NCBI GenBank assembly: GCA_037447655.1
Contig: JBBHKE010002135.1
Coordinates: forward strand, 434,001 to 498,000
Length of the DNA: 64,000 nucleotides
Origin: Zygnema cylindricum
Taxonomy: Eukaryota; Streptophyta; Zygnematophyceae; Zygnematales; Zygnemataceae
Reading direction: 5' to 3'
The first letter of the stretch is position 1; the number at the start of each line of letters is the position of its first letter. The position numbers and the translations under genes are program-made. Shown one piece after another: positions 18,019 to 60,306 of the stretch. The notes below the pieces were generated by a model, which saw only the letters and a list, made by a program, of their open reading frames with translations, made no database searches and was not told the origin of the DNA.

Positions 18019-18057
18019 TGGGAGTTGAAAAGAAAGTAGACTAGAAAATAAGGGGAG

Positions 18058-21273: not shown

Positions 21274-21387
21274 TACTGTTTTTTTCGAGACATACGAAAA
21301 TTCCCCTCAACTTCGGCCTCACTACCGAGATCTAAATCCTCTTCCTCATCAATTTTCCATTTACCTCTACGAATTTGATGGATCTAA

Positions 21388-21906: not shown

Positions 21907-21930
21907 ATCCCCCTCTCAAAGTTGTAATCA

Positions 21931-32470: not shown

Positions 32471-33130
32471 TAATGGTCACATAAAAAAAAACAAAGTAAT
32501 CAAGTATCACCGAAACAAATTAGTCAAAGTATTTGTGTTGTATTTAAAAAAATATATATATACTAATGTTTGTAATGTTGGTCAGCCTTTGAGCTAATAA
32601 TGATGTTCAACAACTTTTTTCATCTTTAAAATAAGTTGGTTGATCGGAAAAAAAATATATATATATTCGAAGTAACAATGTAATCTAACCAACAAATATT
32701 ATGAATGAAAACAAGTGTTTGTAATGTTGGTCAGCCTCTGAGTTTATAGTGATGTTTATGCAACCTTCTAAGTCTTAGGACTAAGTTGGTTGATCACAAA
32801 AAATGAAAAACAAAAACAAATTACTCAAAGTAATCAATCTACTATAATAAACAATGAAAATTAATTAATATTACGTAATTGTAATGTTAGTCAGTATTTG
32901 AGCTGATAATGATGTTTATGCAACCATCTGGGTCTTCAACTAAGTTGCTTGATCAAAAAACAAGAAAAAATACTTAAAGTAATCAACATGTTCTAACTAT
33001 CAAAAAATGTAAAAGTAAATATGTGCTTGTAGTGTTAGTCAACCATCGAGCTGATAATGATATCGTTCCAACCATTTGGGTCTTAAGACTAAGTTGGTTG
33101 AATCCTAGTTAAGTCTGATGTTTGTTCTTT
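32471..33130. repeat. Four ~150-bp tandem repeats
   Basis: Units share TTGTAATGTTGGTCAGCC, then GAGCTGATAATGATGTT, then CTAAGTTGGTTGATC, at about 32,570, 32,718, 32,880 and 33,027, separated by AT-rich spacers. They lie just after the OTU-like ORF. No coding content is seen. Confidence 0.75.
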
Positions 33131-34188
33131 TTTTTTTTTTATTTTCTTATTATTTTTTTTTATGTTTATATTTGTTTCTTTCGTTTATGTTATGTGATGA
33201 AGGTTGTATTGTGGATATTTATTTTGTTTGTCTTTTTTTTGTTTTTTTTCTTTTGTAAAAAAATGAATTGATAAAAAATATATAAAAAACATATATGCAA
33301 CACCTTAATATAAAATAAATAAAAACCATTAGTATTATGTTTGAACGAATAATGATTGAATAATGCTAAGGGTTTAATGTGTATTATAGATTTAACATTA
33401 AAGTATTTAATACTACATTTTATATTCAGTCCATTCATTCATATCGTTCATTAGATTGAGGACGAACGCTCAAATTAATGTGAAACTTTTACGCTTAATC
33501 AAATCCCCTATAAGAACAAAACGTGAATTAAACCATTCACTTGGTTTCGTCATCTTCTTCTACACACATGAACCTTTCCGACATGGATTTTGATAGAAAA
33601 TAATTAATAAACCTGTAACATACGAGTATTTAGCGTAAAATTTTGTCTTTTTCATGAAATATATTAATTAGATGTTAACTTCTCTTGCGTGATACAATTT
33701 AATTCGTTGTTTCATTTCTTCGTGTCTTTTCAATGGACAATTGTGCCTCGATATGGTTTTCATTTATCATACATTTTTTTTTTTCAATTGACTGTTGACT
33801 ATCATTGACAAAGTGTTGTTTGAATTACATTTATGAACGGATTTATACAGTGTTATTTCGGTTCATGCCTCATTTGATTCTGTCGTTTCAACTTATTTCC
33901 ATGTTACATATTATATTTTCATTTTGTATTGGGTTTATAAATTGTATATAATGATTTATTTTTGTGGTCGGATTGAAATTTAACAGTCGCAACGTTAAAT
34001 AGTGTCGGATTTTATGTAAAACGTTAATTGATTTTCCTTTTTTCGTAAGTTTGCTTTAGCCGTGACGTTTTTCAAACCAATCGTTAACGACTTCGGTTAC
34101 AATATGGTACAATACCATGTACAATGTAATAGTATAGTGCCTACCATGTACGAACATAGTACATGACGCCAATAGTGATATTACAGTA

Positions 34189-34793
34189 GACCGCGAATCA
34201 TAATTAGAGTAAATAACGCTAATTTAGTTGCCCTAAATTTCAACTCTCTCACCTTAAATAGAGTGAATTATTATAAATTTTTCATTATAGTATTTAACGT
34301 AAGGTTAATTAGCGTAAGAAATTATAATATAGGTTCGTTTTAAATAGTGTGGTGTAAGGACGTCGTCCGACCATGCAAAATTGTACTTTTATAAGTAAAA
34401 AGGTAGAAATAATGATTTAATAGAATCGCGCTCGCACGTGAAATCGCACTAAACAAAAAATTCAATCACATTAAAAAAAAATCGTTCGCATAACTCTCGT
34501 CTGTTGACAGCATCGTCGTCAGTGTCAACATTACTTGACATTCAGCGCGACAAATAGTAATAACGTCAAACTATACGGACTGACAAATTTTGTTCATCTA
34601 CATAATTTAGTGTTTATAATTACAGCAAGGATAATTATTGCTGACATAACCAAACATAGAGTACTTAAAAAAATTAGCGTAAACTTCCTTTGTGAAAAAG
34701 TTATAACACACAATCTAGCGTTCATAACTCTAATTGTTTTTTTTCTGTTTTTAAGCTCTAATTTTTTTTCTACTCTAATTACGATTCGCGGTG
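34189..34793. mobile_element. MITE of the CACCGCGAATCG family, copy 4 (605 bp)
   Basis: Ends GACCGCGAATCATAATTAGAG and CTCTAATTACGATTCGCGGTG are inverted, with TA on both sides. It lies inside the Harbinger-like element and is therefore younger than it, or inserted while it was resident. Confidence 0.8.
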
Positions 34794-35403
34794 TAGTGCA
34801 CGGATATTGAGAACACGACAACGTGGCGTGATGTGACAGGATCACACGCACCGAAATTAAAAGTACGATACTGTACGTTACTGTACCGGTATTGATTACA
34901 AGATATTTGGCATGACGTCGAATTTGTCTAGCCGTTTATCATACCATTACAACCACGCGAAAATACAACAAATAGTAATGTACCACGTGTCTCTTTTCAT
35001 TACATCATAATTGGAACACAAAGCCAATCAAAACTCAAATCACTCAACGTCTCACTATCTTACACAAAAAAAATTGACGATCAACTATCGTTGTCACCAG
35101 AGACGAATGCGACTACAATGCTTTTCCCTTTTAGAAACAGGACAAAGAAAAATAGGAGAAGTACATTTTTCGTCATCATCGAATTTAAAATGTACTACAT
35201 GTTTTCGTCTTGAAATCTTCGACCCACGGCCACACCAAAAAACGTCATCTTCAAACATTTATTTAAAACAAATTATTTTTGCTAAAAAAAAATAACACCC
35301 ATTTACACGTGTATATTTTTTTCAATAAAATTTCAAATGAATTCAAGCGACGACGAAAAATACACAATTCGGTATGTGTTGTCTGTTTGTGTCCATCAAA
35401 GTA

Positions 35404-35903
35404 CACCGCGCATCGTAATTAGAGTAAATTACTCTAATTCGGTCGCTCAAAATTTCGGCTCTATTACATGAAACAAAGTAAATGATTATAATTTTTTCAT
35501 TATTCTATTTAAGGTAAAGTTTAATTAGCGTTTTTAATTCTATTATAGGTTCGTTTTAAATAGTGTGGAGTACGGACGGTGTCAGACCGTGCAAAATTGT
35601 ACTTTATTAAGTAAAATAGTACAAGTAATGATTAGATACAGGTCGTTATCATGTATCTGCGTTATAACAAATAGCGTAGTGCAAACGTCATAGTGACGAT
35701 AAACTGTACGTTTTGCCAAATTATGTACGGATACCTTATTTACAGTAGAGGATCTTAGCGTGCCAAATTAGAGTACTTAAATAAATTAGAGTAAACTTCA
35801 TAGTTGAAAAGGCTCTATCACATAAATTAGCGTTAATTACTCTAATTGTTTTTTCAGTTTTTGTACTCTAATTATTTCATTTCTCTAATTACGATTCGCG
35901 GTG
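35404..35903. mobile_element. MITE of the CACCGCGAATCG family, copy 5 (500 bp, best preserved)
   Basis: Ends CACCGCGCATCGTAATTAGAG and CTCTAATTACGATTCGCGGTG, flanked by TA within GTAC on both sides. The interior has AATAGTGTGGAGTACGGACGG, then GTACTTTATTAAG, and an AATTAGAGTACTTAAATAAA stretch that pinpoints where copy 3 was interrupted. Confidence 0.85.
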
Positions 35904-36364
35904 TACATAACTAGTTTTGTTTTGACAGGTTTCATTAAGTACGGATTTATTTTTTTCAGGGGATCTGAAGATTCCAATGCCATTTCACAAAAACGCGAGA
36001 AATCTCTAAGGGCGCCACATCAACTCGCACTCGCCGCCTCTCACTGTACAATTATGCGACGTCACGAACACTTTGGAAAATCATAGATTGTAGACGTTGG
36101 CAACCGTCACGCGCATGTCAGTATATACAATCGTCACACCCTTAAGTTTTAATTCCGTTTTCACACATAGGGACACTTGAAATCCGGGTGCGCCAGATCT
36201 ACGCTAAAAAAAAAAGTAATTTCTCTAAGTTACAAGTACATGGAGACGCACCCTAAATTCTTTTTTTAAAAATTTCTATCACACAAATTAGAGTTCATAA
36301 CTCAAATTATTTTTTTCTCTTTTTTACTCTAATTTTTTCTTTGCTCTAATTACGATTCGCTGTG

Positions 36365-39050
36365 TACTGTACGTGTTTGTTGTTTCGCGTCACTGTTTGT
36401 TGTTTTCACTTGGATTGTATGTTGGATGTGCGATTTTAGTGTAGGCGCGCCAACCGATTTCCCACTTTATTCAGAGTAGATAATTTTAACAAAACCATGG
36501 ATTTTTAGATAGTGTAGATATTGGCTCGTCTGCAAGTTGTACCAGAACGTCACCAACAATTTAAAAAATGCACTTTTGCTTCCTCTTTCGGAGGTAAACT
36601 TGAAAAAAATTCTCCACCCTCCCTTCTCGGATAGCAGCCCGTGATGGCTCGTTGGGTAGGCATCAGCAAAAATTTTGTTATAAAGAGAAGCGACATTGGA
36701 GAAACAAGTATAAAACTAGCTTAAATTTGAAGCTAAAGCAGATATAGTCAACTATAACTTTTATACGAGCGCGTTTAAAGGACGTTCTTATATCTAACAT
36801 ATAAAGACATTTGAAACTAATGCAACGAGCCTTCGCGGAGCCCCAAGGATAAGCGACAGTCGAGAACAAGTATGAGTTTAACTCAAATTTCAAACCGTTC
36901 GAAAACGCCTTCCTTGTACTTCGACCTCTTTAACTTCTTCAAGCCCTCAAATAATGCATTGTTGAACAACATCCGTTTAGGTTTAATGTAAATCAATGCA
37001 ACACCTGCCCGATAAGTCTTCGTAAGAAGCAATCGGATAAGCAGTAGTCGTCGAACAATTCTCCAATGTTGAGCTAAAATTTTGGACAATGCTAAAATTT
37101 TTTGCGTATGCCTTTTCGACAGGCCAATAATTTTTAGAAAGTATGGATTTGAAACCTACGGAATAAGCCATCGGGAGCCACGATCAGATAACCAACGTCG
37201 AAGAAACAATTCCTTCAAGCTATGACTCGAATAATCCACTTTAGTCTATTTTTTTTGCCACTACTATGGACGCAAACAAAACTAATTTGTGGAATTCGGC
37301 CAAATGGTGTTTTTCCAAATATCTACCGTAGAGGTGCTTTAACCGAAATGGTTCGACTTGGACAATATTTCGCAAAAAAAAGACGAAACCACAAAAACGA
37401 TGGCCTTCGTGGAGGGTCCACTTAATAGGACTTTTTCCGAAATAGCCCACTTTAGTGAAATTTAACAACTTGAAAGTTGTACTATATCGGTCTACGATGG
37501 TATATATTCGCAGTTAACAATAGACACATATAGGTTATCTATAAGCAACATCTAATCGTTATCTACGAAAAACATTATTTTAGTGCCCTTTGTAAAGTAA
37601 GGTTATTTTAAGCCTTAGATATTTGAGTTGCATGTAGTGCGATAACATTTTCAATTTAAATATTGTACCTAGGATTTGTTTTTATAATAGCATTGACATC
37701 CTATGGTCACTTGATAACGGTTATCATAGCACGGTATTGAGCCATTAATTGTGAGAGAACACTAGTTTATCTCTCCTTGTCGAGACCTAGTGTAAGCATT
37801 TTGGACATTAACCTTGCCATTTCAATGTTTTTTATAAACGAAAATGATCACAAGTGTAAGCATTTTGGAGATTAATCTTGCCATTTCATTTAATTATGTG
37901 AACACATATCCAAATTATTGGTAGAGGTATAAAATAATGTTAATGTTTTATTGGTGTTAAACCTATGAACCCAAAAGAGAGTTGATGACATCTTTTGAAT
38001 TTTTACTCTCAAAAAATTATTTACTCTATTAGCGATTCACAATGTACTATAATTGTGAACGTAATAAACCTCAAAATCTTGTCAAACGCACGATTGTATT
38101 TAAGAGTTTAAAAGAATTTGCTTCCTTTTATTTATGTTGGTTAGTCAGTTAGTTAGTCGATGTTAGACGATTTATGCCTCGGTGCCACAAGTTCCGGTTT
38201 TAAGATTCTAGTCAATTCTATTTCGATATAAAATTATTTACGGACAAATTGTTTACAAGACTTTGAACCATTTCAAAATTCAGTTTGATGCCTATTTTGT
38301 CCAGAATTGGTCAATTTACATCTACACGCTAATTATATAACTACACCGCGAATCGCTATTAACATCAAATATTAAATAGCGTAAGAAAATAATTAGTGTT
38401 ATTAACGCTAATTGGGAATTTGGAAATATAAAAAAAAAACATATATTCTAATTTTTACTAATGCTCATTTGGTTTTTTTTTTTTTTAAAAAAAAAACCTT
38501 AAACATGGTTACACTTGTATCAGTACAAAATATTTGAAATCATACGCCGTCGCGTAATTTTACCGTCCGTACTGGTTAGATTATTTAATGTCAGTTAAAA
38601 TTTTCGCTTTCTTCCAGTGCACATTCACATGCACACGAGCCATTGTTAAACTCTTTTTTTTACTTTTTCACTTAGAAAGGTACAATTTTGTACTTTTTGA
38701 CATTGAACCACACTATTTAAATTGCAAAATATCAAATTTTGCATGTTAGTAGAATTGTATTTTTAGTATCTCTTGACCAAGTTTCAAAGGTTTTAGTTGA
38801 TTAGAATATTGTTTTTGTGAATCAAAAAGTGCCAGTTCTAGGTTATGATAAAAACTTTGTCAGGGAATGTTTCTCGGGTTAGAGAGGCAATGTTCGGTAG
38901 CTTTACTGCATGTGACGTGTTGGGTAGCTTTGCAGCAAGTGATTTTAGAATGGAAGAATCTGAACTGTAGGTTACGGGCCCAAGCCCAAAGCTGCCAGTT
39001 TTCAACGAACGAACTACATTATGTTGATGGTTTTAATGACCAGTTACTTA
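36365..39050. repeat. Spacer with MITE ends and a stray tandem-repeat unit; no gene recognised
   Basis: A single unit related to the 25.3-26.4 kb array lies near 36,575-36,665 (CTCCACCCTCCCTTCTCGG, then CTCGTTGGGTAGG). A MITE right end lies at about 38,044 (CGATTCACAATG) and a left end at 38,344 (CACCGCGAATCGC) with inverted family interior to about 38,720. A ~40-bp direct repeat (GTGTAAGCATTTTGGA) occurs at 37,790 and 37,852. Short open frames have no domain content. Confidence 0.55.
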
Positions 39051-43567: not shown

Positions 43568-44379
43568 TCAAGTATCCCAGTAGCTTGTAAAATTCCACTG
43601 GCGCACCTCGTGATTGTCTCTATTTGTGTTAGTCGAAGCTGTAAAACCAATGTATGCCGAACTCACTTGACTGCAAGTAGCACATTCTGATGGTCGTAAC
43701 AAGTCGCAAAGTGAACGTGTGTATTCGATCCATGGGTTAATAGGCTTTCGCTTGGAAACGGTAAAATAGACTTTCCAAACGTTCGACAAGCCGTTGTAAT
43801 CGACCCATGCGTTTACTGTTCTGTTGACTTTATTGAGATTTGGAACCATTTTTGCAGAAATCGAATTTGAAATAAATCCTTCGCGAAAGGCAATGTTAGG
43901 TTTAAGGGGTTCACCCACATTCAAGAATGTGTCAAAGACAATAGCGAAACTCCCTACTTTCGGGATTTCATCATAAGTATATCCGAGAGTCTCCGAGGAT
44001 CCGATACCAAAAGATTTTAAATTAGCGTTAGATGCAAGAAGAATGAAAGCGAGTCCATCTCCTCTTGTAGTCCCGACACTGCGAATCCTGAAACTGAATG
44101 TTGTTGTAAACGAAGCTCCTTGACAAGTTCCTCCAGTATTCACACGCAGAATTTCAATTGGAGAGCGATGCAATACTTGTCCGTGTTCCATGGGCGACAG
44201 CGAAGTGAGACGAATCCATGGAGCCCAAATTTTTGCAGTATTTAAGAAAATCATTCGCGAGGACTTCTCAAACGACTTATAGGTGATGTTTACTGGAGTC
44301 TTAGTTATTACTGAGGGAGGAGGGTGCGAAGGACGAGGAGGAGGTATCGCTTTACGCGGTGGTGGAGGAGAAATTGTCA
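43568..44379 (-). CDS. Terminal exon: Pro-rich linker + legume (L-type) lectin domain, right gene
   Basis: Phase 1 start after ACCAG. The linker is shorter than in the left copy by about 16 residues. The lectin domain has the same landmarks (G-D-G-L-A-F-I-L-L; F-A-I-V-F-D-T-F; N-A-W-V-D-Y-N-G; Y-I-G-F-T-A-S-T), and the stop is at 43,568-43,570. Asp in G-D-G-L-A-F matches the usual legume-lectin sugar-site position, whereas the left copy has Asn there. Confidence 0.9.
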
Positions 44380-47300
44380 CTGGTAAAAAGAATAGTCATT
44401 ACATTCGCAAGTTGGTTAGATACTCTCTTTCATAAGATGCTAAAAATTACATGATCCGCATGCTTGTATTTATTTTGTTATTTTAGGGATTTTGAGGTTG
44501 TTTATGAAAAGATTCTCATTCTTTACTTGATTCAAGATTAGTGAAAACTTGGTAAAAGCAAAAAACAAACAATATAGAGCATTTATAAAGATAATATCAA
44601 TTTGAATACTCCCACAAATAAACGGGAGCTATTATGGGGATTTAAGGATACATACTGAAATTCATAAGAAAACTCCGGAGTTATTAGATGCGATTGGCCA
44701 GTTTTGATGTACAAATTTCATGCAGGGCTTATAAAGTTATTTTCATTAGTGAAAATAAGTACGAAGAGCGTTGTTTTCATGGATTGAATACTGGTATGAC
44801 TTTCTAAAACCTCGCTGTTGTGACTTGTTGTCTATTTCTAAAAGCTATATGTTTTATCACAAGTTGATTTTTCACTATTTTCCCGAATATCAACATACGA
44901 CATTGTTATTCAAAAAAGTTATGTATGAAACTAAGTTATTCCAAAGAAATAATAAGATTGTTAGCAGCTAAACACGTACCTTTTCGAAGAACTCGTACTT
45001 CACTAAGATGTAACCACTGGCCGGTTGGCAGAACTACCCACACATATCTGCCAACGCGATTACACTCTTTGACAAACGGAAATCCGTAAGAACCACCATC
45101 ATAGTCAAAATATGCCTCCGGATTGCACTCTGATCCATTCCTATCGTAGGAAACGCTCGAGTTGGAGATATGCACCTGGACACCGGTCATGCGCCACCAA
45201 CATACGCTACACGGAACACCAAACAAACAGCAGATGCGGTTGTATAGTTCCACTTTACCAACCATATACATGTCGAGCAAATCCACTTTCCACCAATTAA
45301 CCGCATAAGGTTGAGTGCAAAACCACCTCCCCCAACTGGAGCCGTCGTTTCCATAATAACTCTCGTCCAACGTCCCGTCTAAGTCCCAAAAGGTGCTACT
45401 CAATTCAGTGGGTTTCTTGAATGCTAAGTTCTCTGCAAGAACAAAAGATCTCAAAAAACACTTAGACTAGATGTCAAAAAACATTGGTACAATCATTATT
45501 GTTTCAAATAAAACTATGAACATGATGAGTTAGGAAACTCTATTTTCTAAGGTTATGTTTTACAGTTGGTCTATTAAAGGTAACAATTTCTGTTATTTTA
45601 CGTAAGCAGTTCACACGATTTATCAGAGATAGATTGGTAAATTCTATCACGCATTCATTGATACATTTGATTTAGTATTAGACTATAGCATAATGCATTG
45701 AGAACGACAGAGCAACTCATACATTCAACTATGCAAGGGTTTCTCTCCGCCCACCACTCTATTTGGATAATATTTGCCTGCTAGCCTAGAATTCTAGACT
45801 AAGACTTTTCTAGGTGGGTTTGCCAGACATTAGTAGCAAGTAAGCAGCGGATTAAACTGAAATATGTCGTTATTGAATAATATATTTACTATTGAACCTG
45901 GCGGTGAACAAAGCTGTCGCCCGCACGAATCATTTTTTTAGGGTCCTTCCCTGACAATTGTTTTCTTAGATAGAAGATGTCTGTAGTGCCTCCAGGAAAC
46001 GTTTTCTCCCGAGGAGCTTTTCCAAAACCCCAGAAATTCGCTGAAACTTAAGACGGTTGCACTTGCCAGCGTCAGACATTTGCTAAAAAGGCAAAACAAT
46101 GTTAAAATTTTGCACATTAGTTATTTTACACCAACAGATTTTGTGACTTCGCACATGAATCGAAGGCATGCCACCAACTTCTTAGGGCACATGACGCTCT
46201 CACATGTTCATACAGCAATCTTCATAAAAGCCTGACGACGATTTGAAATCTTTATCGTTAGGATAAGATAAACGAGATTTTGATAATTGCAACCGGCCTT
46301 AGAGTGGCCATCGACCAAGAAAATCACAATGACCAAGAACCAATACAGAAAATTGAAATGACTGTGAACTGAATTTTATAAACGAAAAGAATTTAGGATA
46401 CAGTTACTGGAATGGAAAAAAACATAAGGTCTAGACAGAAAATAGTGGTAAAAAAGATAAAATCTCCGCATGTTGGAAAATATAGTTTTTGATTGCTTTT
46501 AGTATGGCAAAAGGACAAATTGGATAAAGACAATTGACAAAAAGAAAAATTGGGCCAAAAACACTATCGATAAAAATCGCGATGGTACAATATATTTTCT
46601 CGCACATACATTACGGAACCGATATTTGAATTAAAAGGTAGTAAAAAGCCAGATCATTCTACACGCAACTATTACGAGATATGATTGGTGATCATATCCA
46701 GACAAACACGTCACAAAAATACCTGCATGGAAACTAAATACGGTAGAACGCAAAGAAAGCAGAACAATGCTTTTGCAAGGAAACTACAAATTTACGAACA
46801 CAATTCTCATCTTTTTATGTTCCCATAGTCGGCAAGCATCTTGTGGGCTACAAAAATTGGGTTAAACCAGAAACTCAAGAAAACTTGATAAACGCTTGCG
46901 GATTTTGATCCTAAGAAATTTTGGATATACAAGAATAGCGTCGGTAATTCAAATGCACTTTAAAAAGTCTCTGGAAATTTTTGACCGAAAAAAAATTATT
47001 TATAGAAGCATTGTGTTGTCGTCGAGAATAAATGCAGTATGATTAAGGGTTACATCCGATTTTGTGGGTACCACTCTTACGATTTTAAAAATTAAGTTGG
47101 CCTCTGAGTTAAACTTGAAAACTTTCTAAAATTTTTGAAGTTGAGAAATTTATGAGTTTAACTTGAAAATAATCGACAAGTAAGATGTCAACCAGAGTTA
47201 ATACATAATTGTCGGAGGTTGTTGTTAAGTTTGTATATACCTCCACCAAAGCCTGTTGCCGCATCGCCAGGGCTGACATTTGTCCCCACGGAAGTCTTTA

Positions 47301-50300
47301 ACCAACATTTTTTAGTTCCCAAGAAAAACGTAAAAGCCCCACAAGCCAATACTTGGTTACAAAGAGCACAACACGCTTCCGCAGATGAAGTATTGACTCC
47401 CGCATAACCTACAATGTCGTTTCCAGTTATAACCCAGCCATATTGCAAGGTACAAAATGGTGACGGTGGAGGTGGCGAAGGACGTGAAGGTGAAGGAGGT
47501 GAAGGTGGTGGAGGAGGAGGTGAAGGTGGTGGAGGAGGAGGTGAAGGTGGTGGAGGAGGAGGTGAAGGTGGTGGAGGAGGAGGAGGTGGAGGAGGAGGTG
47601 AAGGTGGTGGAGGAGGTGAAGGTGGAGGAGAAGGAGAAGGTGGAGGAGGTGGGCGAGGTGGACCGGTATTTCCTGCATGTACATGTTTGCCAAATGTAAA
47701 ACACGTAAATTTCATTGAGAAGTGGATTTCATTGTTCTTCATTAGCTTTTTAGCCAAGGGTAGTTAACCGCAAATTGATGTGGGAATCGAAATTAGAGGA
47801 GGAGACGGTGCGATGGGCCAAACCGGAGTTTGCATTTTTTTTGGTTATGAAAAAAGAAAATCATGTTACAAAGTGAGCAACATTGTTGAATTAGAATCAC
47901 GGTTGTTTTCAGTTCGTTTTAAGTTGTTATCCCATACGATACTACCATAATGTAAAAGAGAAAATAGTATGGGAATAAAGAGGAGATGCGCAATGTGTGG
48001 AACTGGAATTTTCGCATTTCGTATGTTTTTGACAATGTGAATAACTCATTGGATTTTAAGAAATTGGTGTTTAGTACGATTTTGAGGACTGTTTTTTTTT
48101 CCCTGTGTTATTCACGAGGTTGTGAAGTGCAAACTGATGTGGGAGTTGCAGCAAGAGGAGTAGAAAGTTCGATAGGGCGACTGGGAATTTTGGCATTTTA
48201 TGTGGGACAAAAAAAGAAATTTTATAGAAAAGAAAGTAAAACTCTTTTACACGATAACCATTTATTATTTTAGAATTATCATTGCATGCGTTCTGTGTAT
48301 TAAGCATCTTTTGAATGAACAAATTTACAGGGAATAGATTGAGGGATAAAAAGGTTCAAAAATATAAAAAATGTTAACATCCTTGATTCATAGCAATGTT
48401 TGAAGTGTAAAGGATTATCAAAAGAAAAATTATCCTTTAGTACAACTATATTTTAATTTTGAAGCTTTTCATCAATCGCAAAGTTGTTAATTATGAGATT
48501 CTGTACTTCCGAGTTAATGATAACGCTATCATTTGGTGGTTCTCAAAAAAAAAAAAAAATCAGTTGCGGCCTCTCCTTCGCAGAGATTTGTTTATATTCC
48601 CTTCAATTTCAGGGTTTTGACTTTTGAGGACCAAAACACGGTAAAGATGAACCTTTTAGGATTTTTCAAAACAAAAAACCCATTTACATATTCTTTTTTG
48701 GCTTTCTTGATGTTAGACCAGCCTACCAAAATTTGAATGTGTATAGAAGATATAGTCAAATTTATAAACAACAACAGTACCATCGCATCCTATGCAAAAA
48801 TGATGTTTGAATAAGGCAACAAATGGAAAAAGGGTCTAAATTGTCGTGCTATGCAAGTTGCAAAATCACAGTAAAATTAGAGTAAAAATCAAAAGTGCTC
48901 CCTACCGTATTTGTTTCTCATACCTTCAACATGCCTTCGGTTTTACTGAAGATGCTTTCGGTTTTACAAAAGGAGATGCAAGGAGAGAAGTACCCCCTTC
49001 CCGCCTACTGTCAAGCCCTTTTGTGCATCAGAGCAGTACAACTCTTACAACTTGTTCAAAAATAAATTAAGGTCAGGAGCGACCCCTTACAAGAACGCAC
49101 ATCACGAAAAAAGCCGATGCCAAAGCTTTGGAAATATAAAAGAGCACAGTCTGCTTTTTTGTCCTTCTTACAACTCCGTCAGTTTAACAATGGAATTTAG
49201 TACACTGGCTGTTTGCGAAGAGTAGCACTGTCGAAATGTCCTAGGTATGTATGACAAAGGTGCGTAGCTATGTACGGTATTAAAGGCTACATGTAAATGA
49301 GTGCCTTTGTACTCTGTTGTGTCGTTCAAACAAAGTCAAATCCTATCTTTAAGGTCTTCTTTAAACCTTGTCTTCTTGAAAATTTCCTTTTCCACCTCGT
49401 TTTCCCAAAGAACTTAGCCCTTTTGGCCTTTTCTTCCCTCACTCTCCCTTAGTTCCCCCTAATACCTTTTACTTAATTCTAGATGTTTACGTGTCAATGT
49501 CGACTACATATTATACTATAAAAAACATCCGACACTACTATCATACTGGCAAATATGGAAAACAAATGGGGTTTTCATTTGCAAAATATTCCTGTCTGAG
49601 TATTCCCAGGTAGTAAATGCTCTTCTAGCAAATATGGTGACTAGGTTTATTTGGAATTGAATTTTAGCTAACAGTGACTTGGCATTTATTAAGTTCAATC
49701 TCATCTCCTAAGTACTGGGACATTTTTGGCATTGTAAACTAGTTCTTCAGCTATATTACAATCTTTTTCCGTGTTGTACACTATCGATTGTTTAAATGCA
49801 AAGGAGCAAGAGATGGTAGCGCAAAACATATCTATCGATATAAAAGAAGTTTCTCATCAAGGATAGAACATATTTCAAGGTATAAATATATTGTCAAATA
49901 CATATATCATATGCATGGAAAGTTACTTTATACTTGAAAACGTCTCCCACTAGGGTTAATGCACATTTTAAAGACAACTATATTGTAATATACATAACAT
50001 ATAAGCAAGAAAAGGTGAAATAGACGTACGGATGCAAGAGTACTCGTCTTCGTCGTTGATATATCCGTCATAGCATTCGCATGTATATGTCTTCCCGTTC
50101 ACACTAATTTTACACGTTCCATTTCCCCCACAAGATCCTCCTTCTTGAGTTGCATTGCAGAATTGTTCACATTCATTTCCACTTCGCTGTTTTGCAATAG
50201 GACATCCGGATGGAATTTCTGTGGATTTAAAACAGTTCTTTTCCAATTCGTCACATTGAGGATGTCCATTTGATGTAGTGACGGATCCCGAGAGATAGTT

Positions 50301-53300
50301 TGATGAGATATTACTGGAACATGATGATAAAAGTACCGAGAAGAATATTATAAACGGTAAGAAATTAGGAAACACAAGAAAATTTTGTCAGACATTGAAA
50401 CCTGACGAGTTTGATCCGGAAAATTATGGAGGCAAGATGCAAACATTGGTTTTGCAGCAGCAACAATTCTTAAATTGGTGGTAAGTTTACATTCGTTCTT
50501 AATACAAATGCTCACCTTCAATTTCCACAGATTAACTGTTTTAGAAAATCATTTTCAGTCAATTTATGCTCCATCGGCAAAATGAGCGTTCTAGAATATA
50601 CGGGTTGATAATAATCGAGAAACCTCAATTACTATGGTTAGAAAGCAAAAGAATTTTCCAATTTTCTTCAGTTAACTGTTTATTAGATAACATTTGAAGA
50701 TACGAAAAATTTGTGAGTTTCGTATAACGTTTGGTGCAGATCCGTTGAGAATAAACATCCCAAAAAAAAATAGGCGACAGGTAAGTTGATATATATGTCT
50801 TTCATAAAAGATAATAATCGTTGACACCCATGTGTTTGATGTTGGAATTGGGAGAATCGGCGGGTTTGGTCGATCTAATATTATTTTTGTTCGCGTTGTA
50901 TTATAGTTACGTTTCGCTTGGTTTGGTTTGAAGTTACGTTTCAGTTTACGTTTGATTGAATTATTGTTACGTTTGATTGAATACGTTTCAGTTTTTTTTG
51001 CGGCATTATAGTCTCGTCGGTGTCGTTTGATCCTGTACGGTAGTGTAACATTTTAGTGCGGCTACTTTGTGTTAAGTGCTAGTTCGTTGCATGCCGTGAA
51101 GTTACAGTTCTTCGTGTCTTGTTAGGCATGGCGTGAAATGTTCCACGCGCCAATGTGTTTTGTACGGCGCACGTATGCATGTGGATTGCGGCGCCTTGTG
51201 TTTGGTTTCTTAGTGGATCTTTCAGGCAGTTTGGTGTCGATCAGGAGAAATGTATTTAAAGGTACGGTGACAGTGTTATTACAGTCAGAAGTTAGTGAGT
51301 TAGTAGTCAGTGTGAGAAGTGAGGAAATATTTGTAAGTGAGAAAAGCTTCAGTGAAATATATTTATGTTTTTCTGGATTTCTGTGTGATCTATAAAATTG
51401 TGAATTGTAGTTTTCTATTTGCTTCCGCTGTGATTCGTGAGTGTATTTGTGAGCATCAGATCGATCCTGGTTTATAACATTTGAGACCTAGTAGAAGTCT
51501 TACTTTGGAAAAAAAAGTAAATAGCCTGGATCTTGTAATATGTTAACATAAGTAAATATCGCAGTTTATTAATGAGTTGCAATCCGGGTCATAATAACAA
51601 GAAACTTAGAAATCACATTCAAATTTTAAAACAAGACCGCAAATAAGTTGGAGAATTAAAATTGAAAAATTAATAAGGCTCTTCTCCAAAAACGTTAGCG
51701 TTAAATCAACCATTTTAGATAAAATAGCTTCTCCCCCCTCCCAACAGTCTTTCACGCTAAAAAACGAAAAACGAAAAGGTTTTATGATTTACCTTTTTAT
51801 AAATTTATATGTTCTTATGCAAAGATTGGTCAAACATTTTCGGATTTCCAGGCGTTTTTCATTTTTTTGAAAGCTATTCAGTCCTATTATCCTATAGTGC
51901 TTTTGATACTAGAATCTCCAATAGAACATATTTATTTTTCAGTTTTTGCAATATAACTTTTAAAACGTTCATTCAAAATTGCAGTTGCAAATATGTCAAT
52001 AACGTACGTTTTCCTTTAAATTATGAGCCTTATCTCTTACCTCCCAAATTATAAGATTTCACGATTTTCAAGGGTTTTTCAATTTTTTGAAGGTTTTCCA
52101 AATGAAAAACCGTACAATACTCTAATGGAAAACAAGAACCCACAAACAAAATGATAACTTAGCATATATGTATATATACATTAATATATATATTTGTTTC
52201 CGAAACACAAATCAAAACGAAAATCTAAAATTAAAATCAAAATCAGAATCAAAACAAAAATCAAAAATAGATTTGGAAAGTTAAAAAACCCTAAAAACCC
52301 TAAAATAAGATTCAAAACCAAATCCGTTTATGAACGAAAGATGAAATTTGAAAGGGAAAAGAAAATTGAGATGAAGGTAAAATTGAAAATAAAATGCTAA
52401 TAAATGAAAGTCGAAACGACACCAAAACCAAAACTAGTACCTGAACTTGCACATAAAAAAAATAAAAAAAATCACATTCAAAGTCAAAATCAATTAAAAA
52501 AATTATAGTCAAAAACAAATTTGAAATTGAAACAAAATTAAAACCAACATAAACACCAACAGCATAATACAAACAAAATTTAAAACCAAATCCAAAACCA
52601 AAATCCAAGCTAAAACAAAAATCAAAATCAAATGAACATGAAAATGAAAATAAGAATAAAAACGAGAATAAAACAATAAAAAATAAATTCAAAATCCAAC
52701 TTCAAACCGAGATCAAATCCTAGATCTAAAAGTAAATCTCCATTAAAATCAAAATCATAACCAAAATCACAAATCTTCCAACAGGAAAAGAAAAACTTAC
52801 AAGCTTTGAAAATATGGCAACTGACCAATAGATGACGGGATACTTCCAGTCAAAAAATTATCATATAGCCATCTGCGAATTCTCCAACAAAATCCAATCC
52901 CGTAATACAATGGATGTAATGATTGTTTCATTTTTAATTATATTTATAGCTATGTTCTTTTAGTTGTGTTATATGTCGTATTATTATGTTTTTACACACG
53001 CATGTGTTTTAATAAATTTTTATCGATGCAATTGTTTAAATCTGTAAAAAACTTAAGATAGTCTTCTAAATATGATGCATGATTACCAGATTAATCGTTT
53101 TAGAATTTTAAGAACATTTTCTTAAATGTCTAAAACGTGCATTTCTATATTCCTCTGATCCTCCCTTCCTCCCACTTTCCCTCCCTCTTTCCCTTCCTCC
53201 TTCCGACAATCACGCTTCTCCCTCCCTTCGACAAATCTTTTCCCTCCCTCCAACAACACCCTCCTTTCATCTCTCTTTGTCTCCTCCAACATCTCTCCTT

Positions 53301-56300
53301 CTACCATCGTTCATCTCCTCCCCATTTCCCTCCGTCGCTTCTTCACACCTTTCCTCCAACTCCTTGTCTTTCCTCCCTCCCTCCCTCCCAGCCTCCCTCC
53401 CCCTCGTCATCACTATTCTTCTCTCTCCATCGTTGCCCCCTACCTCCGTCCATTTTTCCTTTCTCCCCCCGCTCCCCCTATCTCCTCTGTTTCCCTCCAC
53501 TATATCTCTTTATCTCTCTCCCTGCATCTATTTCCATGTTAATATTGAAGCTACACTTTTTAAGAACCAAAAAACACCCTCATTTACTCATAAGAAAAAA
53601 ATTGTTAATAGCCGATTTTGGCAACTTTTATTCCAAAAGACTTTCACCTTTTCATTTTTTATATGTTTTCGTCATAGTCATCGAACTCATTCTTTTTCAA
53701 AGCTCGAAGTTCAGAACTCGCATTTGACAAAAAAAAGAAAAATCCATTTGCCAAGAAAATCCAGTTGTCGAAAATAGATTTTCCATTCCTTCTCCGGATA
53801 AAACGGGGGCATCATTTATTTTTTCTATAAAATCTCTACTTTTAAGGTTCGGGATTTAGGGCTTCCAGGTTATAATTTTAGAATTCAGGCCCTATTAGTT
53901 TTTAGGTTTTCAAGATTTAGGATTTTAGACTTACAAAATTTGGAGGAAATACATTTGACTGATGGACGACGGAATGCTTCCGGTCAACTGATTATTATAT
54001 AAATATCTGAAAGAAAAAAAAAACAATGTCCTGTCTTTTCTTCTTAGTTTTTGTAAACATGGTAACAAACAAAAATATATGTCTGACTGTCTATTTTAAA
54101 ATATGTATACATTTATGGGTGTCATTCCAAACCAACAAAACCCGCCTTAAGTGTAGATATTCGATGTAAATAGTGAAAAAAGGGTTGATTTTCAAAAAAA
54201 TCTCCATGAATAAGACCACCACAAGGGAAAAAAAAAAAAAAAAAATGCAAAATTATATGATACGACTTTTCCGTTAAAATTTGGAACAAAATATTCAGTA
54301 AATCGTTGTTAAAAAAAAATTATTCGTTTTCCTTTCACTGTTCACAACTTCACACTTTTTAATTTTCCATCTCTGTTTTTTAAACAGCAGTTGAAATTTC
54401 CAATCCTTCAGCCTTCGATATTATAATAAAATATGATTTCTTTCGAGAAAAAACCAAAGTCGCTGTGTCAAAAAGTCAGGAATGAATTTGAATATTTGGA
54501 TACCATTGAATAAATATTTGCTTCGAGTTTTTGGGAAACATTAAACATTTAAAAATATAATTATCTAAAAATTTAGGGCATATTTTCAGTCACACGTAGA
54601 GATTATAGATTTTTTTCCACTTTTTGAAAAATTGTAGTATTACCGAATGACAGCTTCTTTGTACACATCCAAACATTTACAGGATAGACAATTTTTTAAT
54701 TAAATTTCATCATGGTGGAAAAGATATTTATTTTTGTAGGCATGTCCTAAAATTAAAATTAAAATTATAATTCATCAATGGAAATATGTATTCGTTTCTA
54801 TTCCACAAGCATTTAGTACAATTCAAATTACAAATGTAATATCGTCATTGATGTCCATTTTTCAATTCTCACTTGCATTTGTGAATTAGAGTTCAATTTT
54901 ACTTCAACTTAAGAAAATACCGTTTTCAATTTCGACAGGCATTCATTAAAATTAAGGTTCACCTTTGGAGAAGAGCTTCTAGTGCACAAACAACGTATCC
55001 TCTAAGTACATATAAACTATATACGTATGTAAGGAAATAAGAAATCATAAAATAATAAAATAAATTTAAAAAATGGTGAGCATTAAAAGAAGCAGAGTTA
55101 CAAGTATTTCGGGGATACTAGGCACATGTTTATCCGCTCATTTGTCATCCGTTGCAATTGGAAGGTCATTTTGTGGACTAAAATATCATAACAGTGAACG
55201 CGTTACCTAATTTTTTCGTATTGTGCCAAAAGTAGATGTCAATTACACCGTTTTCCTGTATTATTACTACATTAGTATATATCATTACGAATGTTCATTT
55301 GTTGAAACGAACGTTAGTGTCAAAAGTGTAACAAATGAATGATTTTTCCATAAGTATTGACTAAGTTTTTTTTTGCAGAATCTTTGTTTTTTTTTGCAGA
55401 ATTTCTTAGCCGCTTTCTTCACACTAAAGGCAACCGTTTTAACTCTTTCACCTCTCTCCATGACTTCGTTCTGTTGACACTATACTTAAAAATGACGGCT
55501 CCGATCAAAAAGCCGATTAATTCGGTTGGAAATAGACCCGATGGCGCCTTTTAGATACAATTTTGATTTTAATACGAGAAAAAAAAAATATTTGATTCCC
55601 ACACGGGTTCCAACGCCAAAAAAAACAGGTTAATGTCGTCAATAGTTTGCTAGTCATGCCATCGGGCATAACAATGACTTCAACATCTCATGGCCGTCCA
55701 ACTTTGAGTTTAGTGGACGGTCGGGATCTTGGTCCACATACGTGTGAATTTGTATACAATGATGTTGGCGAAACAATGTGTTCCCATTGGCTCGCTAATC
55801 GGTACTACAAGAAATGGAGGTTCGCGTTCCGCAAAATGCACATTAAATATTTTCGGACTTTTGTGACCACATGGACCAGATTTCTGCAAAGGCGCTAAAC
55901 AACAAATCCGTAGAAATTGACAAACCAATAAATGCTTTGTTTTGATTGTTTGAAAATTGAAAGCTCTACATCTTTCTCACTAATGTGTTCTTTTCTTTTA
56001 CATTGCGTCACTTTTACTTCTACTTTACGCCTACCCAAATTCAGAATTTTCAGTAGTCTAAATGTTTGTCCACACACAAATTGTCCATTTCTGATTGGTC
56101 ACTGTGAAAAATTGTAGCTTTGCCGCTTTTTGGTGGAGGAATCTCATTTTTTCGCCATAAGTACTTTGTCGTGCTGTCTATCATTCACACAAAGTTGGAT
56201 TTTTTTTTGTAAAAAATGACAATGATAATCAAAGACGCAAGATGGACTGATTTGCCTAGTCAACCAAAAATTCCAATTCATTTACTTCCAGCTCTGGTGT

Positions 56301-59300
56301 TAACGAATATTATCAAAATCTTTCTCCAAAAATGTAGCGCATAAATAGATTATTTATATATTCCAATTATAAAGAAAAAAAAAATCACTATGATGTTACT
56401 GCTGAATACGGGAAACAAAATGGGATTTTCCATTTCCTAATATACTTACGCAAATACAATACAGTGACCATGAAATGAAACAAAATCATAACAAAAACAG
56501 CAACAACAATCCGTATAATAAACTTTACTTACACTACTTGAACATTCACTAATTGATCGAAATTTGGGATACTTCCGGACAAGCGGTTGCTATTTAAACC
56601 CCTGTCCTCTCCCTCCGCGGCCGCCCCCGCCCGAACCCCCAAATCCCCACCATCCACAATTTTACTTTATTCTTTTTTCTCCTTATTTTCTTCTGTTTTT
56701 ATATTTCAAGAATGGATTCGAATTCTTTTGTTATAATAATAATAATCATAGATGACCTAGCTTAAGATTCAAGTTCTGTGATTTTTTTCTTACATTTCAA
56801 ATGTTAACTCTGGACATTGATCTTCAAAAAATACCTTTTGGAAACTTTCAACATTGATTGGACAACCTGGTTCCACCTTCCCTCTCACGACTACTCTCTT
56901 TCTCCCTCTCTTTCCCACCCTCACGCTCCAAGTCTTTCCCCTTTCGCTTACAGAGAGACCCTCTTGCTCCCTCTTCTCTACCTCTCCCTCCCCCTCTCCA
57001 TCCCTATCCCCACTTGACTCCCCTCACCCTTTTTAGTCGTCATCTCTATCCGTCGCCCTTTCTCTTTACCTCATCTCCCGCCTCTCTCTCTTCCTCGTAC
57101 TTTTTCACCTCTCTTTTTTCCTCGTCCACTTCCTCTCCCTCTCCCTCTCCCTCATGAAATGTCATGAACATCACAAGTACTGCTAGCTTGATTAGCGGAA
57201 AAATATACAAAAAACACATGAAAAAAGAAAGAAACAAAAAACTAAAACTGAAAAACCATAAAAATGAGAGAAATAAATGCCCTAAAAAAATGTCACATAA
57301 AATTCTTTAAAAACCCCGATATCTTTAAAATACTTGAAGATCCTAAAAATTTCCTACAAAAGTCTTTAAAGAAATGTTGAATCATAGCACATAACACTAT
57401 AAGAAATGTTAAAAACACGCCGAGCAGCTTAAAAAAATAAAAATTAAAATCCAAGAAATTTGGAAAAAATAAAACCCTCAAAAATGTAAGAAGCGAGAAT
57501 TGAAAAAACAAAAAAAAAGAAACCCTAAAAAAGTCATGAAAAAAAACGTACAATTTTATAAGGCCTGTTATTTCGTTGATGGACGGCGGAATTCTTCCCG
57601 TGAACTGGTTATCCGACAACCAACTGTGACATTTGTAACACCACTGAAAAATCTTAGGTCTATCAAATTACGGGATGTTTGTGGTTTTGTTTTCAGTTTT
57701 TTATAAATTATACAATTTCAAAACTAAAAAACGAAAATAAATAGCCAAAAAACAACCGAAAACTTTTATGGTTTAGGTTTTTTTGTGGTTTTTTAGGTTT
57801 ACGACTTGGTAGGAAATACTACAGAGATTCAATCTTGACATTTGTAACCCCGCTCAAATAAACTCTTAACAGTCACGAATTATGGGAAATTTATTTTTGG
57901 TTTTTTATTTGTGGTTTCCTACGTTTTATTTATCATTTTTTTTAACAGCTTTTAGGGTTTCGTAGGATAATTTGGATGAATTATGGAATCTGAAGTCAAC
58001 AAACGGGAAACAAAAGGACAAAAGTGGTGTTGCAGTCAACAACTGCGGGTAGCATCAAAATCAATTCAAAAAGGAAATTGAAAAACAAATTGTGATTAAC
58101 ACTGGATAGTTTGGTTATGGCACCAACTTTGAAGCATATTTGACCATTTTTGGAACACATTTTTCACCTGTGAAAATTTATCCGATTGAAACTTTATCTT
58201 TTTTTAATTGTAAAAAATATGTTTTATTCATGATCGTATATTTTACTCTGATACCTTTCCATTCTATATATTTTTTTAAATATATGCAGGATAATGTTAA
58301 AAACAAACAAACATTCGACTTTTTCACAACATTTTTTAGATAGACAACTTTTAAGAAATTTTCACTCCGATTTATATTAAGTAGCTTTGGAGAAACGGAA
58401 ATAATAGGAGAAAAAATCACTTTGATTTGAATATCAACTCACCAATCTACGGTTCTTGAGGGATCCTCACCTCTAGAGGAGAATCAATAAAAAAAAAATG
58501 AAATGCATTCTCAATTGCTAAGCTCATTTCGGCTATTTTTTTTTGTAATGGTAGAGATTGCAACTTAAAGGATTTGTGCCAAAAAAGTTGGTTTTAAGTA
58601 TCATATTATGTTAACAGTTTACAAAACCAAAGCCAGGAGTATTTTTTTATTGTAATGAAACTCTGTATGTAGTTTACAACAGTACTAAAGTTTTACATCA
58701 GTCCTATTAACTATATTGCTTGAATACAAAAGTCAATCATACCTGAACCCTAAACTCATAACCACTGCTCAGATCATATAAATCACAAGTCACAAAGGTA
58801 ACCAAGGATAGAAATAGAATCAATGATTGCAAGAAAAATGTAATGAAAAGAATGCAATGCAACATGAAAGATAACTTTACAAGCTTGTCAACGTCTTCTT
58901 ATATCGCTTGCAATACCTTATCTTTGCTAGTGACTTCATTGTTTGTCTGTAGCATTGAATGGATTACACAATGCTGATTGACTTCCGATTTGTAATAAAT
59001 TTGACTCTGGCAATTTTTCTTGTAAACCTTTTTGGATACTCCAACGAAAATATTATCTATGTTGGTTGAGAACAGTCATTCAATGAAAAAACTAATGGCA
59101 GCCTTGAGTGATTGAAAGATGTGTCAGACCGAGTAACGTGACAATATTGCTAACTGACAAATAGTAACACGTGCTGAATGATGTACGCAAAGTGAAGGCT
59201 GACGTGGATCACATCCGAACGTCCTTTTACACAAAGACGTGTATCATGACGTTTCAGGTCCAGATCTGGTGAAGTGCAAATGAAGCATTTACAAATACCA

Positions 59301-60306
59301 CTAAGTATGTTTACAAAAATTACAGGATAAAAGAGAAGTTCCTGATTTAACATGAAATATTGTGTATTTGTATTATTTAGCATTTTGTATTCCTTTCGCA
59401 ATTGCGTTTCAAACCTATATTTTTTTTCTGCCCCCAATTTACCATGGAAAAAAGACACCAGGTGCTTTTCAACAAACTCTTATATGCATCATTTGGATAA
59501 GAAGTGTAGGTTTTAGGTGGGGTAGATAACAAGGGCTATTTAAGCACTTTTCGATCCCCCCGAGTTTAAACAGCTTGTGGCAGGAAAGGCCATGAAAGGC
59601 AGAGAGAAAAACAAAAAATAGAAAAGTCAAAAAAATGAAGTCTAGAAGGATCAAAGTATATGTAGAAAGGGGAGACAAACAAAGAAGCCAAAACGGAGAT
59701 TTTTGTTGTTGAAATTTTGCCTTTGCTAAGGATAATTTTTACAATTGAGATAGAAAGACTTTTATAGAAAAAGGACAACCGAGAAGCCGCAAAGGAGGTC
59801 CAAGGCACAACTAATCTAGGCGTATCTGATGGAGGGATAGGCAAAAAGAATCAAGAAAAATAAAAAATTCTTTAGGTTCCGATATGAATCTTCTACACTA
59901 CCAACGGTATGTGCACACCGCTAGAAAGATTACAGCACTAAAATAAAGTTATAGACTCCAATTTAACGTTTAGGAATTAAAAGTTAGAAGGACATGTTAA
60001 TTTAGTCATTTTATTTGGTAGACTTCCAATAAGGCTACTAGTGTTAAAATGACAAAAAAGTTAAAAGAAATGTCTGTATACATATATACATAGCTATAAT
60101 GACAAAATTAAAAATAATGATTATCTATATCAAATATTAACAATAAGAATAGCAACAAAAGAAAAAATAACAACAACAAAACCGAAAACACTTATAATAT
60201 AAAATGATAAAAGGAAAACTAGAAAAAAACTTACATTTGTTGAAGACGGGTCATCATCCCGATGCATTCCGGAACGGTCCCACTTAATTTGTTGTCGGCT
60301 AACACT
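43568..60306 (-). CDS. Right mosaic gene: LRR(n) - EGF - PAN - F-lectin - L-type lectin, apparently intact over visible exons
   Basis: Exons on the minus strand, 5' to 3': 60,306-60,235; 57,623-57,552; 56,601-56,533; 54,006-53,935; 52,872-52,801 (five LRR exons); 50,313-50,030 (LRR end + EGF); 47,672-47,241 (Pro linker + PAN); 45,432-44,980 (F-lectin); 44,379-43,568 (Pro linker + L-lectin, stop). More LRR exons and the N-terminus are probably right of 60,306. Every junction fits the frame, phase 2 in the LRRs and phase 1 afterwards, with no stop. The domains point to an extracellular or cell-surface recognition protein combining protein-binding LRRs with two lectin folds. No anchor or kinase follows the last domain. 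It lacks one LRR exon and one PAN + F-lectin pair relative to the left copy. A solo LTR and long AT-rich introns separate its exons. Confidence 0.82.
44380..44979 (-). other. Intron before the L-lectin exon, right gene
   Basis: Reverse counterpart of 12,349-13,024. No coding domain. Confidence 0.6.
44980..45432 (-). CDS. Exon: F-type lectin domain, right gene
   Basis: A 453-nt phase 1-1 exon, the same length as both left copies, open throughout, with T-F-W-D intact where left module A has a stop. N-W-W-K-V-D-L, Y-N-R-I-C-C and S-E-V-R-V-L-R landmarks are kept. The CC pair without the preceding Asp is shared by all three copies. Confidence 0.88.
45433..47240 (-). other. Intron between PAN and F-lectin exons, right gene
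   Basis: Collinear in reverse with the left module B intron, including the segment near 9,500-10,085 that left module A has lost. No coding domain. Confidence 0.65.
47241..47672 (-). CDS. Exon: long Pro-rich linker + PAN/Apple domain, right gene
   Basis: A 432-nt phase 1-1 exon. The linker is about 70 residues of PPPPPPSP-type repeats, encoded by an 18-bp tandem repeat (GGAGGAGGAGGTGAAGGT on the plus strand), more than twice the length in the left exons. The PAN part is very close to left module B: S-S-A-E-A-C-C-A-L-C-N-Q, C-G-A-F-T-F-F-L-G, C-W-L-K-T-S-V-G. The donor is GGAG|GTATAT. Confidence 0.88.
47673..50029 (-). other. Intron between EGF and PAN exons, right gene
   Basis: Reverse counterpart of 4,259-6,653, including the imperfectly duplicated stretch next to the PAN exon. 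No coding domain. Confidence 0.6.
50030..50313 (-). CDS. Exon: end of LRR domain plus EGF-like domain, right gene
   Basis: 284 nt as in the left copy, entering in phase 2 (N-I-S-S-N-Y-L-S-G-S-V) and leaving in phase 1 at GTACGT. EGF-like cysteines are all kept (C-G-G-N-G-T-C...C-E-C-Y-D-G-Y...C). The hydrophobic stretch upstream of the acceptor is broken by a frameshift and stop here, which argues that it is intronic. Confidence 0.86.
50314..52800 (-). other. Intron of right gene containing a solo LTR
   Basis: Matches left-arm parts of 800-1,855 and 3,310-3,974. The intervening 1.45 kb of the left arm, including an LRR exon and minisatellite, is absent: the join is near 51,780. T-rich (minus strand) simple sequence fills 52,200-52,790. 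Confidence 0.7.
50840..51479 (+). mobile_element. Solo LTR (640 bp) in the right gene
   Basis: Begins TGTTGGAATTGGGAG and ends GGTTTATAACA, flanked by a perfect 5-bp duplication TTTGA (50,835-50,839 and 51,480-51,484). The corresponding site in the left arm near 3,600 is empty, so it inserted after the inverted duplication. Termini and duplication length fit Copia/Gypsy LTRs. No internal region remains, so it probably formed by LTR-LTR recombination. Strand cannot be fixed; plus is given because TG...CA is symmetric. Confidence 0.88.
52801..52872 (-). CDS. LRR exon, right gene
   Basis: 72 nt, phase 2-2, donor GTAAGT. Orthologous to left 728-799: W-L-Y-D-N-F-L-T-G-S-I-P-S-S-I-G-Q-L. It would splice straight to the EGF exon, giving one LRR fewer than the left gene. 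Confidence 0.88.
53150..53545 (-). repeat. Pyrimidine-rich tract (purine-rich on the sense strand), intron
   Basis: Complement of the left tract at 1-470. CCCTCC repeats with a run of four CCC blocks near 53,372-53,390 give a G-quadruplex motif on the sense (minus) strand. A second, similar CTCTCC/CCCTCC tract lies at about 56,865-57,155 in the next intron upstream. Confidence 0.85.
53935..54006 (-). CDS. LRR exon, right gene
   Basis: 72 nt, phase 2-2, acceptor TTTCAG, donor GTAAGT. Encodes Y-L-Y-N-N-Q-L-T-G-S-I-P-S-S-I-S-Q-M and joins in frame to the exon at 52,872. Confidence 0.88.
54007..56532 (-). other. Intron of right gene
   Basis: Mostly AT-rich. A less AT-rich stretch at about 55,360-56,120 contains an 83-residue plus-strand open frame (55,647-55,898) without recognisable domain; it could be a mobile-element remnant but has no visible termini. 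Confidence 0.5.
56533..56601 (-). CDS. LRR exon, right gene (23-residue variant)
   Basis: 69 nt, one codon shorter than the others but still phase 2-2, donor GTAAGT. Encodes G-L-N-S-N-R-L-S-G-S-I-P-N-F-D-Q-L; the codon lost lies after I-P. It is preceded by a C/G-rich patch unusual for the window (GCGGCCGCCCCCGCCCG on the plus strand). Confidence 0.85.
56602..57551 (-). other. Intron of right gene with pyrimidine-rich tract
   Basis: About 56,865-57,155 (plus strand) is CTCTCC/CCCTCC simple sequence, purine-rich on the sense strand. The long open frames there are compositional. Confidence 0.6.
57552..57623 (-). CDS. LRR exon, right gene
   Basis: 72 nt, phase 2-2, acceptor GTCACAG, donor GTACGT. 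Encodes W-L-S-D-N-Q-F-T-G-R-I-P-P-S-I-N-E-I followed by T-G-L. The short frame usually read from M-S-D-N-Q is this exon read with a spurious start. Confidence 0.88.
57624..60234 (-). other. Intron of right gene, no exon recognised
   Basis: Long AT-rich stretch. A diverged LRR exon could be hidden here, but none with the 72-nt phase-2 pattern was found by eye. Confidence 0.5.
60235..60306 (-). CDS. LRR exon, right gene (most 5' exon seen)
   Basis: 72 nt, phase 2-2, acceptor TTTTACAG, donor GTAAGT. Encodes V-L-A-D-N-K-L-S-G-T-V-P-E-C-I-G-M-M. Its own 5' side is phase 2, so more LRR exons must precede it. Confidence 0.86.

Follow-up and report, generated by a model that had tools for sequence, protein, structure and literature searches.

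A candidate mosaic gene of Zygnema cylindricum combining LRR, EGF-like, PAN, F-type lectin and legume-type lectin modules in two inverted copies

The analysed window, meaning the whole 64,000-nucleotide stretch of Zygnema cylindricum DNA, carries on its minus strand between 60306 and 43568 an exon series in which all five module types (LRR, EGF-like, PAN, F-type lectin and legume-type lectin) are present, and a diverged copy of this series lies in inverted orientation at the other end of the window. The modules, their order, their phases and their duplication are directly observed. The series is probably a real and functional mosaic gene, built from known domains in an architecture that is new to the searches made here; with a probability of roughly 0.7, the two convergent, diverged copies represent one gene whose presumed transcript would encode a secreted or wall-bound, kinase-less, glycan-binding mosaic protein of recognition or adhesion. 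The exons of the focal copy, in order of translation, are as follows.

60235 to 60306, minus strand: LRR exon a; 72 nt, phase 2 to 2, scan score 20.5
57552 to 57623, minus strand: LRR exon b; 72 nt, phase 2 to 2, scan score 20.5
56533 to 56601, minus strand: LRR exon c; 69 nt, phase 2 to 2, scan score 16.0
53935 to 54006, minus strand: LRR exon d; 72 nt, phase 2 to 2, scan score 21.5
52801 to 52872, minus strand: LRR exon e; 72 nt, phase 2 to 2, scan score 20.5; counterpart of 728 to 799 on the plus strand
50030 to 50313, minus strand: partial LRR (NISSNYLSG, in register), Cys-rich linker and EGF-like module; phase 2 to 1
47241 to 47672, minus strand: Pro-rich (PPSPPPP) linker and PAN domain; phase 1 to 1
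44980 to 45432, minus strand: F-type lectin; phase 1 to 1
43568 to 44379, minus strand: Pro-rich linker and legume-type lectin; starts in phase 1, TGA stop at its end

Joined in this order, from the five LRR exons through the EGF-like, PAN and F-type exons to the terminal legume lectin exon, the sequence forms an open chain of 778 residues that lacks its N-terminus and meets its first stop in the terminal TGA; the phases are compatible at every junction. The lectin, PAN and EGF exons are bounded by AG acceptors and GT donors; since AG/GT was the criterion by which these boundaries were set, and the LRR scan likewise required AG/GT and phase 2, the support for the chain lies in the phases and registers. 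The LRR exons belong to the phase class 2-2, the PAN and F-type exons are 1-1, and the legume exon starts in phase 1; the EGF exon combines a phase-2 start with a phase-1 end and so unites both phase classes, tying the LRR part to the lectin part. The NISSNYLSG segment at the start of this exon stands in the LRR register, its spacing from the acceptor matching that of the LRR exons; its score of 14.0 equals the best score of 20 shuffled windows, a good value that is not decisive by itself. Taken from the sequence, this arrangement supports the assignment of the LRR, EGF, PAN and lectin exons to one gene, presumably read as a single transcript. The original prediction of one splice-compatible series is borne out by the compatible phases and the open chain, and by a second copy that keeps order and phases. 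Five LRR exons, including the 69-nt exon ending at 56601, are present in the focal copy; the inverted second copy had not featured in that prediction. No start codon or signal peptide was assigned upstream of 60306.

Stop-free stretches of at least 150 codons number 20 in the window, against a mean of 0.45 in shuffled windows; several of the 20 are low-complexity or copia frames. An alternative code with TAG and TAA as Gln was rejected, as the focal chain uses CAA or CAG for all 23 of its Gln residues and has no in-frame TAA or TAG.

The LRR exons stand out in a scan of both strands of the window for phase-2 segments of 22-24 codons between AG and GT that carry the core of a plant-type LRR: of 333 open candidates, 7 scored at least 16, the next best reached 9.5, and the best in 20 Markov-shuffled windows 14. 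Five of the seven are focal (60306, 57623, 56601, 54006, 52872) and two lie in the second copy (728, 2023). The repeats measure 23-24 residues and carry the N.L.G.(I/V)P core of plant-type LRRs; over the whole chain, the LRR_1 matches sum to 49.5 bits (cut-off 20.6). For the other modules, Pfam was queried exon by exon, with a little flanking frame included. The legume lectin exon matched PF00139 with 97.7 bits (cut-off 26.3, E 1e-27) over profile positions 3-237 of 250, the F-type exon matched PF22633 with 29.5 bits (cut-off 27.8), and the PAN exon matched both PF14295 (PAN_4; 29.6 vs. 27) and PF00024 (PAN_1; 28 vs. 21.4). When the whole 778-residue chain was scanned, PF22633 (26.2) and PF14295 (26.3) fell just under their cut-offs, and PF00024 (24.4) and the legume match remained above theirs. 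Among known structures in PDB, the F-type exon matched FBP32 (E 2.9e-14) and eel agglutinin 1k12 (E 7.6e-9), and a profile of three F-type copies recovered the same structures at 1.5e-11 and 1.7e-8; the legume exon found nothing at a threshold of 1e-12 and 59 sequences at 0.001, with plant seed-type lectins at the top (best 7.3e-11). AlphaFold models built from three sequences each had low mean pLDDT values (F-type exon 32.9, legume exon 31.8) and were discarded, so that both lectin folds are assigned from sequence. The EGF-like assignment is weaker: all Pfam EGF models stayed under cut-off (best cEGF 20.9 vs. 26.6; 21.6 in the second copy), and the six Cys of the exon match, by eye, what we take to be EGF spacing. 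Hence, of the domains originally proposed, the LRR, PAN, F-type and legume calls are supported by the profile matches, whereas support for the EGF call is weak. The 778 residues, which exclude the N-terminal part, gave no kinase match in Pfam, and a stop codon ends the legume exon.

The second copy, here termed copy C, occupies 2 to 14884 on the plus strand; it is a diverged, inverted copy in which the module order is kept. Its counterpart on the minus strand runs from 53600 to 42559, and the aligning blocks, which take in introns and the 3' flank, are 71 to 91% identical. Its exons are listed below.

728 to 799, plus strand: LRR exon; counterpart of 52872 to 52801, score 20.5
2023 to 2094, plus strand: LRR exon; score 21.5, without an aligned counterpart in the focal copy
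3975 to 4258, plus strand: partial LRR and EGF-like exon
6654 to 6974, plus strand: PAN exon 1
8520 to 8972, plus strand: F-type lectin exon 1; broken by an in-frame TAG
9139 to 9447, plus strand: PAN exon 2
11896 to 12348, plus strand: F-type lectin exon 2; 31.4 bits
13025 to 13884, plus strand: legume lectin exon with stop; 95.2 bits

The resulting order (LRR, LRR, EGF, PAN, F-type, PAN, F-type, legume) shows the PAN and F-type pair doubled as a cassette between the EGF and legume exons, and the stretch 1862-3317, which holds the LRR exon at 2023, has no aligned counterpart in the focal copy. All three PAN exons of the two copies pass a PAN cut-off, and the two F-type exons scanned, the unbroken ones (focal and copy C exon 2), pass that of PF22633. 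Retroelement sequences lie between the two copies. The preservation of module order and phases in copy C strengthens the one-gene reading.

Sequence divergence between the copies differs among exons. Pairwise Nei-Gojobori estimates of dN/dS between exon copies were 0.168 for the EGF exon and 0.173 for the legume exon; the three PAN pairs gave 0.438, 0.308 and 0.508, and the three F-type pairs 0.223, 0.51 and 0.531, the last value of each set being the comparison of the two copy C cassettes. Introns diverged by K of 0.197 (EGF-PAN), 0.198 (F-type-legume) and 0.125 (PAN-F-type against cassette 2), and the 3' flank by 0.189; values of 0.17 in the EGF and legume exons, next to introns at about 0.2 per site, support one gene. 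Mismatches at first, second and third codon positions show a third-position excess in the legume (14/8/35) and EGF (5/4/11) exons and between the focal PAN exon and copy C PAN exon 2 (10/7/21). The focal F-type exon differs from copy C F-type exon 1 by 7/8/13; the excess is absent against copy C F-type exon 2 (14/10/13) and in the sole LRR exon pair (4/2/2), and the copy C F-type exons differ from each other by 15/10/15. Constraint on the EGF, legume and PAN exons is clear; on the F-type exons it is weak, and the LRR exon pair gives no sign of it.

These patterns bear on two rival accounts of the locus. Both copies could be decaying pseudogenes, with an exon conservation that predates the loss of function in one or both; the in-frame TAG in copy C F-type exon 1, the retroelement sequences between the copies, and the little or no third-position excess in the F-type and LRR exon comparisons fit such decay, and pairwise dN/dS does not tell on which branch the constraint acted. 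Yet the focal chain is free of stops over 778 residues, the EGF and F-type exons are equal in length between the copies, the PAN and legume exons differ by whole codons, which a reading of the sequences places in the Pro-rich part, and two exons combine a dN/dS of 0.17 with intron divergence of about 0.2, so that decay of both copies appears unlikely. It is also conceivable, and somewhat less probable again, that two neighbouring genes were duplicated together, an upstream LRR gene and a second gene that begins with the EGF exon and has a signal peptide of its own, as co-duplication alone would not separate two genes from one. The EGF exon of copy C is directly preceded by an in-frame ATG and a hydrophobic run; the focal EGF exon, however, has no in-frame upstream ATG, the pyrimidine-rich tract of an acceptor by itself translates as hydrophobic residues, and, immediately before the exon, the aligned copies show gaps of 8 and 1 bases that break the frame relation between them, which argues against coding there. 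Moreover, this exon starts like the LRR exons, with an in-register partial LRR behind an AG acceptor in phase 2. More generally, an in-frame ATG before the first upstream stop is lacking at 5 of 10 exons, including the legume exon of either copy and, in the focal copy, the EGF and F-type exons, and is found at the copy C EGF exon, the focal PAN exon, copy C PAN exon 2 and both copy C F-type exons; no module has one in every copy.

Within the one-gene reading, the sugar-binding capacity of the lectin modules is a separate question, and the alternative that they lack it and serve as protein-protein or lipid-binding scaffold modules of an adhesion protein has an appreciable, if minor, probability; apart from glycan binding, it overlaps with our preferred explanation. 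In the legume domain, the Asp of the DGLAF motif is present in the focal copy but replaced by N in copy C and by E in the close protein relative of the legume exon (P0001), and the Glu preceding FDTF is absent, while FDTF and the following Asn are kept; we take these positions to be the conserved Asp and the metal-ligand set of the sugar site. In the F-type domain, the three copies differ at 24 of 135 columns, including 19-21, 40-43, 71-72, 76 and 79, which in our reading sit around the aligned pocket loops; columns 40-43 are all variable (hypergeometric 0.0008, for a region picked after seeing the data). Column 40 aligns to His52 of eel agglutinin, and the fucose motif HX24RXDX4(R/K), with residue roles as given in PMC5712786, is not satisfied: the His is replaced by Q, Y or E in all three copies, and the Asp is not kept, with Cys at the position of Asp81. 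The eel pair Cys82-Cys83 has Cys at both aligned positions, split by an insertion of 8 residues. Against a pure scaffold, both Arg positions of the site align with eel agglutinin (by eye), and oyster F-type isoforms without the basic triad are described in PMC5712786. Since the sugar-contact residues are only partly kept, glycan binding by the lectin modules is possible but not secure, and the module is best termed F-type-lectin-like rather than a proven fucose binder.

Protein searches were made with the legume exon, the F-type exon and the chain region 340-778 (F-type to legume); such searches need shared exact words and gene models, and cover spliced eukaryotic genes poorly. A close relative was found only for the legume exon, where 1 of 287 candidates was significant (P0001, with 58% identity across 86% of the query); none of 6 candidates was significant for the F-type exon. 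For the chain region, 2 of 4046 were significant: a long protein (P0002) with PF00139 and kinase models, and another long protein with legume-lectin models and PF03160, presumably Calx-beta. In the contig collections, pattern matches were confirmed neither for the legume exon (0 of 60 in genome contigs, 0 of 56 in viral contigs) nor for the F-type exon (0 of 22 and 0 of 35). Among the papers listed on F-type lectins with legume lectins, LRR, PAN or EGF, mostly in algae and with subscription papers poorly represented, no title or opening part of an abstract describes a protein of this make-up. The domain combination, regarded as unfamiliar from the outset, was accordingly not met in the protein, contig and literature searches made.

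Individual features have counterparts in known systems. Plant L-type lectin receptor-like kinases and ectodomain-only proteins share the legume-lectin domain and a cell-surface or secreted setting; unlike the receptor-like kinases, the focal chain has no kinase, and its legume domain comes last, C-terminal to the LRR, EGF, PAN and F-type modules. L-lectin ectodomains and RLPs have been traced back to glaucophytes and red algae (PMC10834447). The F-type lectins or fucolectins, such as eel agglutinin and MsaFBP32, match in sequence over the domain; in contrast to them, the focal module lacks the full fucose motif, has the 8-residue insertion and is joined to a legume lectin. F-type domains are known from green and brown algae among others, mostly alongside other domains (PMC5712786). 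The brown-algal LRR-ROCO genes, as described in PMC11378527, encode one LRR per 72-bp phase-2 exon, a plan shared by all focal LRR exons except the one of 69 bp; they carry a ROC-COR GTPase, whereas the focal gene has extracellular-type modules instead. Chlorophyte and bryophyte proteins join an EGF-like module to a lectin, as in the focal gene, but the combinations described in PMC6362431 use GNA or ricin-B lectins in place of F-type and legume lectins.

Under the favoured one-gene reading, the protein would consist of an LRR solenoid, an EGF-like module, an extensin-like Pro-rich spacer, a PAN domain, an F-type fold, a second Pro-rich spacer and a terminal legume fold followed by the stop. 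The LRRs may bind a protein or peptide partner, the two lectin-fold modules may bind glycans on cell surfaces or the wall, and the stiff Pro-rich spacers would hold the lectin-fold modules apart; exon shuffling would have assembled the gene. More speculatively, and on balance doubtful, the two copies could belong to an exon-shuffled, variable repertoire of two-lectin recognition proteins, with a logic like the LRR-exon shuffling of brown-algal ROCO genes; loci would then gain, lose and exchange phase-2 LRR exons and phase-1 PAN and F-type cassettes, and residues near the sugar pocket would diverge. The locus presents known domains, each module encoded by a separate exon, in an arrangement that the searches made did not recover, with legume-type and F-type lectin folds combined in one chain; it would provide a concrete case of a receptor-like protein assembled through exon shuffling, probably in a lineage other than animals and land plants.

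The F-type exon block of the focal mosaic gene (minus strand, 60306-43568) finds its nearer match, at 90.9%, in F-type exon 1 of copy C, the diverged inverted second copy (plus strand, 2-14884), when blocks 8433-9039, 11069-12487 and 46264-44840 are compared; the intron upstream of the focal F-type exon is nearer to the second PAN + F-type cassette of copy C (block 87.5% vs. 70.9%). These sequence affinities hint at conversion or unequal exchange between cassettes. The additional LRR exon that copy C carries has a tandem repeat beside it (2261-2580; 42-base unit, 7.8 copies), within a stretch to which nothing in the focal copy aligns.

Copia-type sequence was recorded in these stretches:
15489-19150, direct repeat pair, about 1.09 kb each and 98.4% identical, around an interior of about 1.5 kb
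20283-25068, minus strand, broken copia-type frames with zinc knuckle, reverse transcriptase, gag and integrase matches

A copia-type gag match (16531-17106) forms the start of the interior of the repeat-flanked unit, a young LTR element that appears to be gag-only. In the broken frames, reverse transcriptase (RVT_2) scored 97.9 bits; the gag and integrase matches fell under the cut-off. Short dispersed repeats (69-84% identity) are scattered through 28773-36373, and a frame at 31874-32467, which extends into an Asp-rich repeat, has a weak OTU-protease match slightly under the cut-off (22.1 vs. 23.3).

In two of the three PAN exons (47240-47190 and 6975-7025), translation continued beyond the PAN donor meets a stop after 17 residues; the two tails resemble each other and end in CINSG, so retention of the intron could conceivably give a short form.
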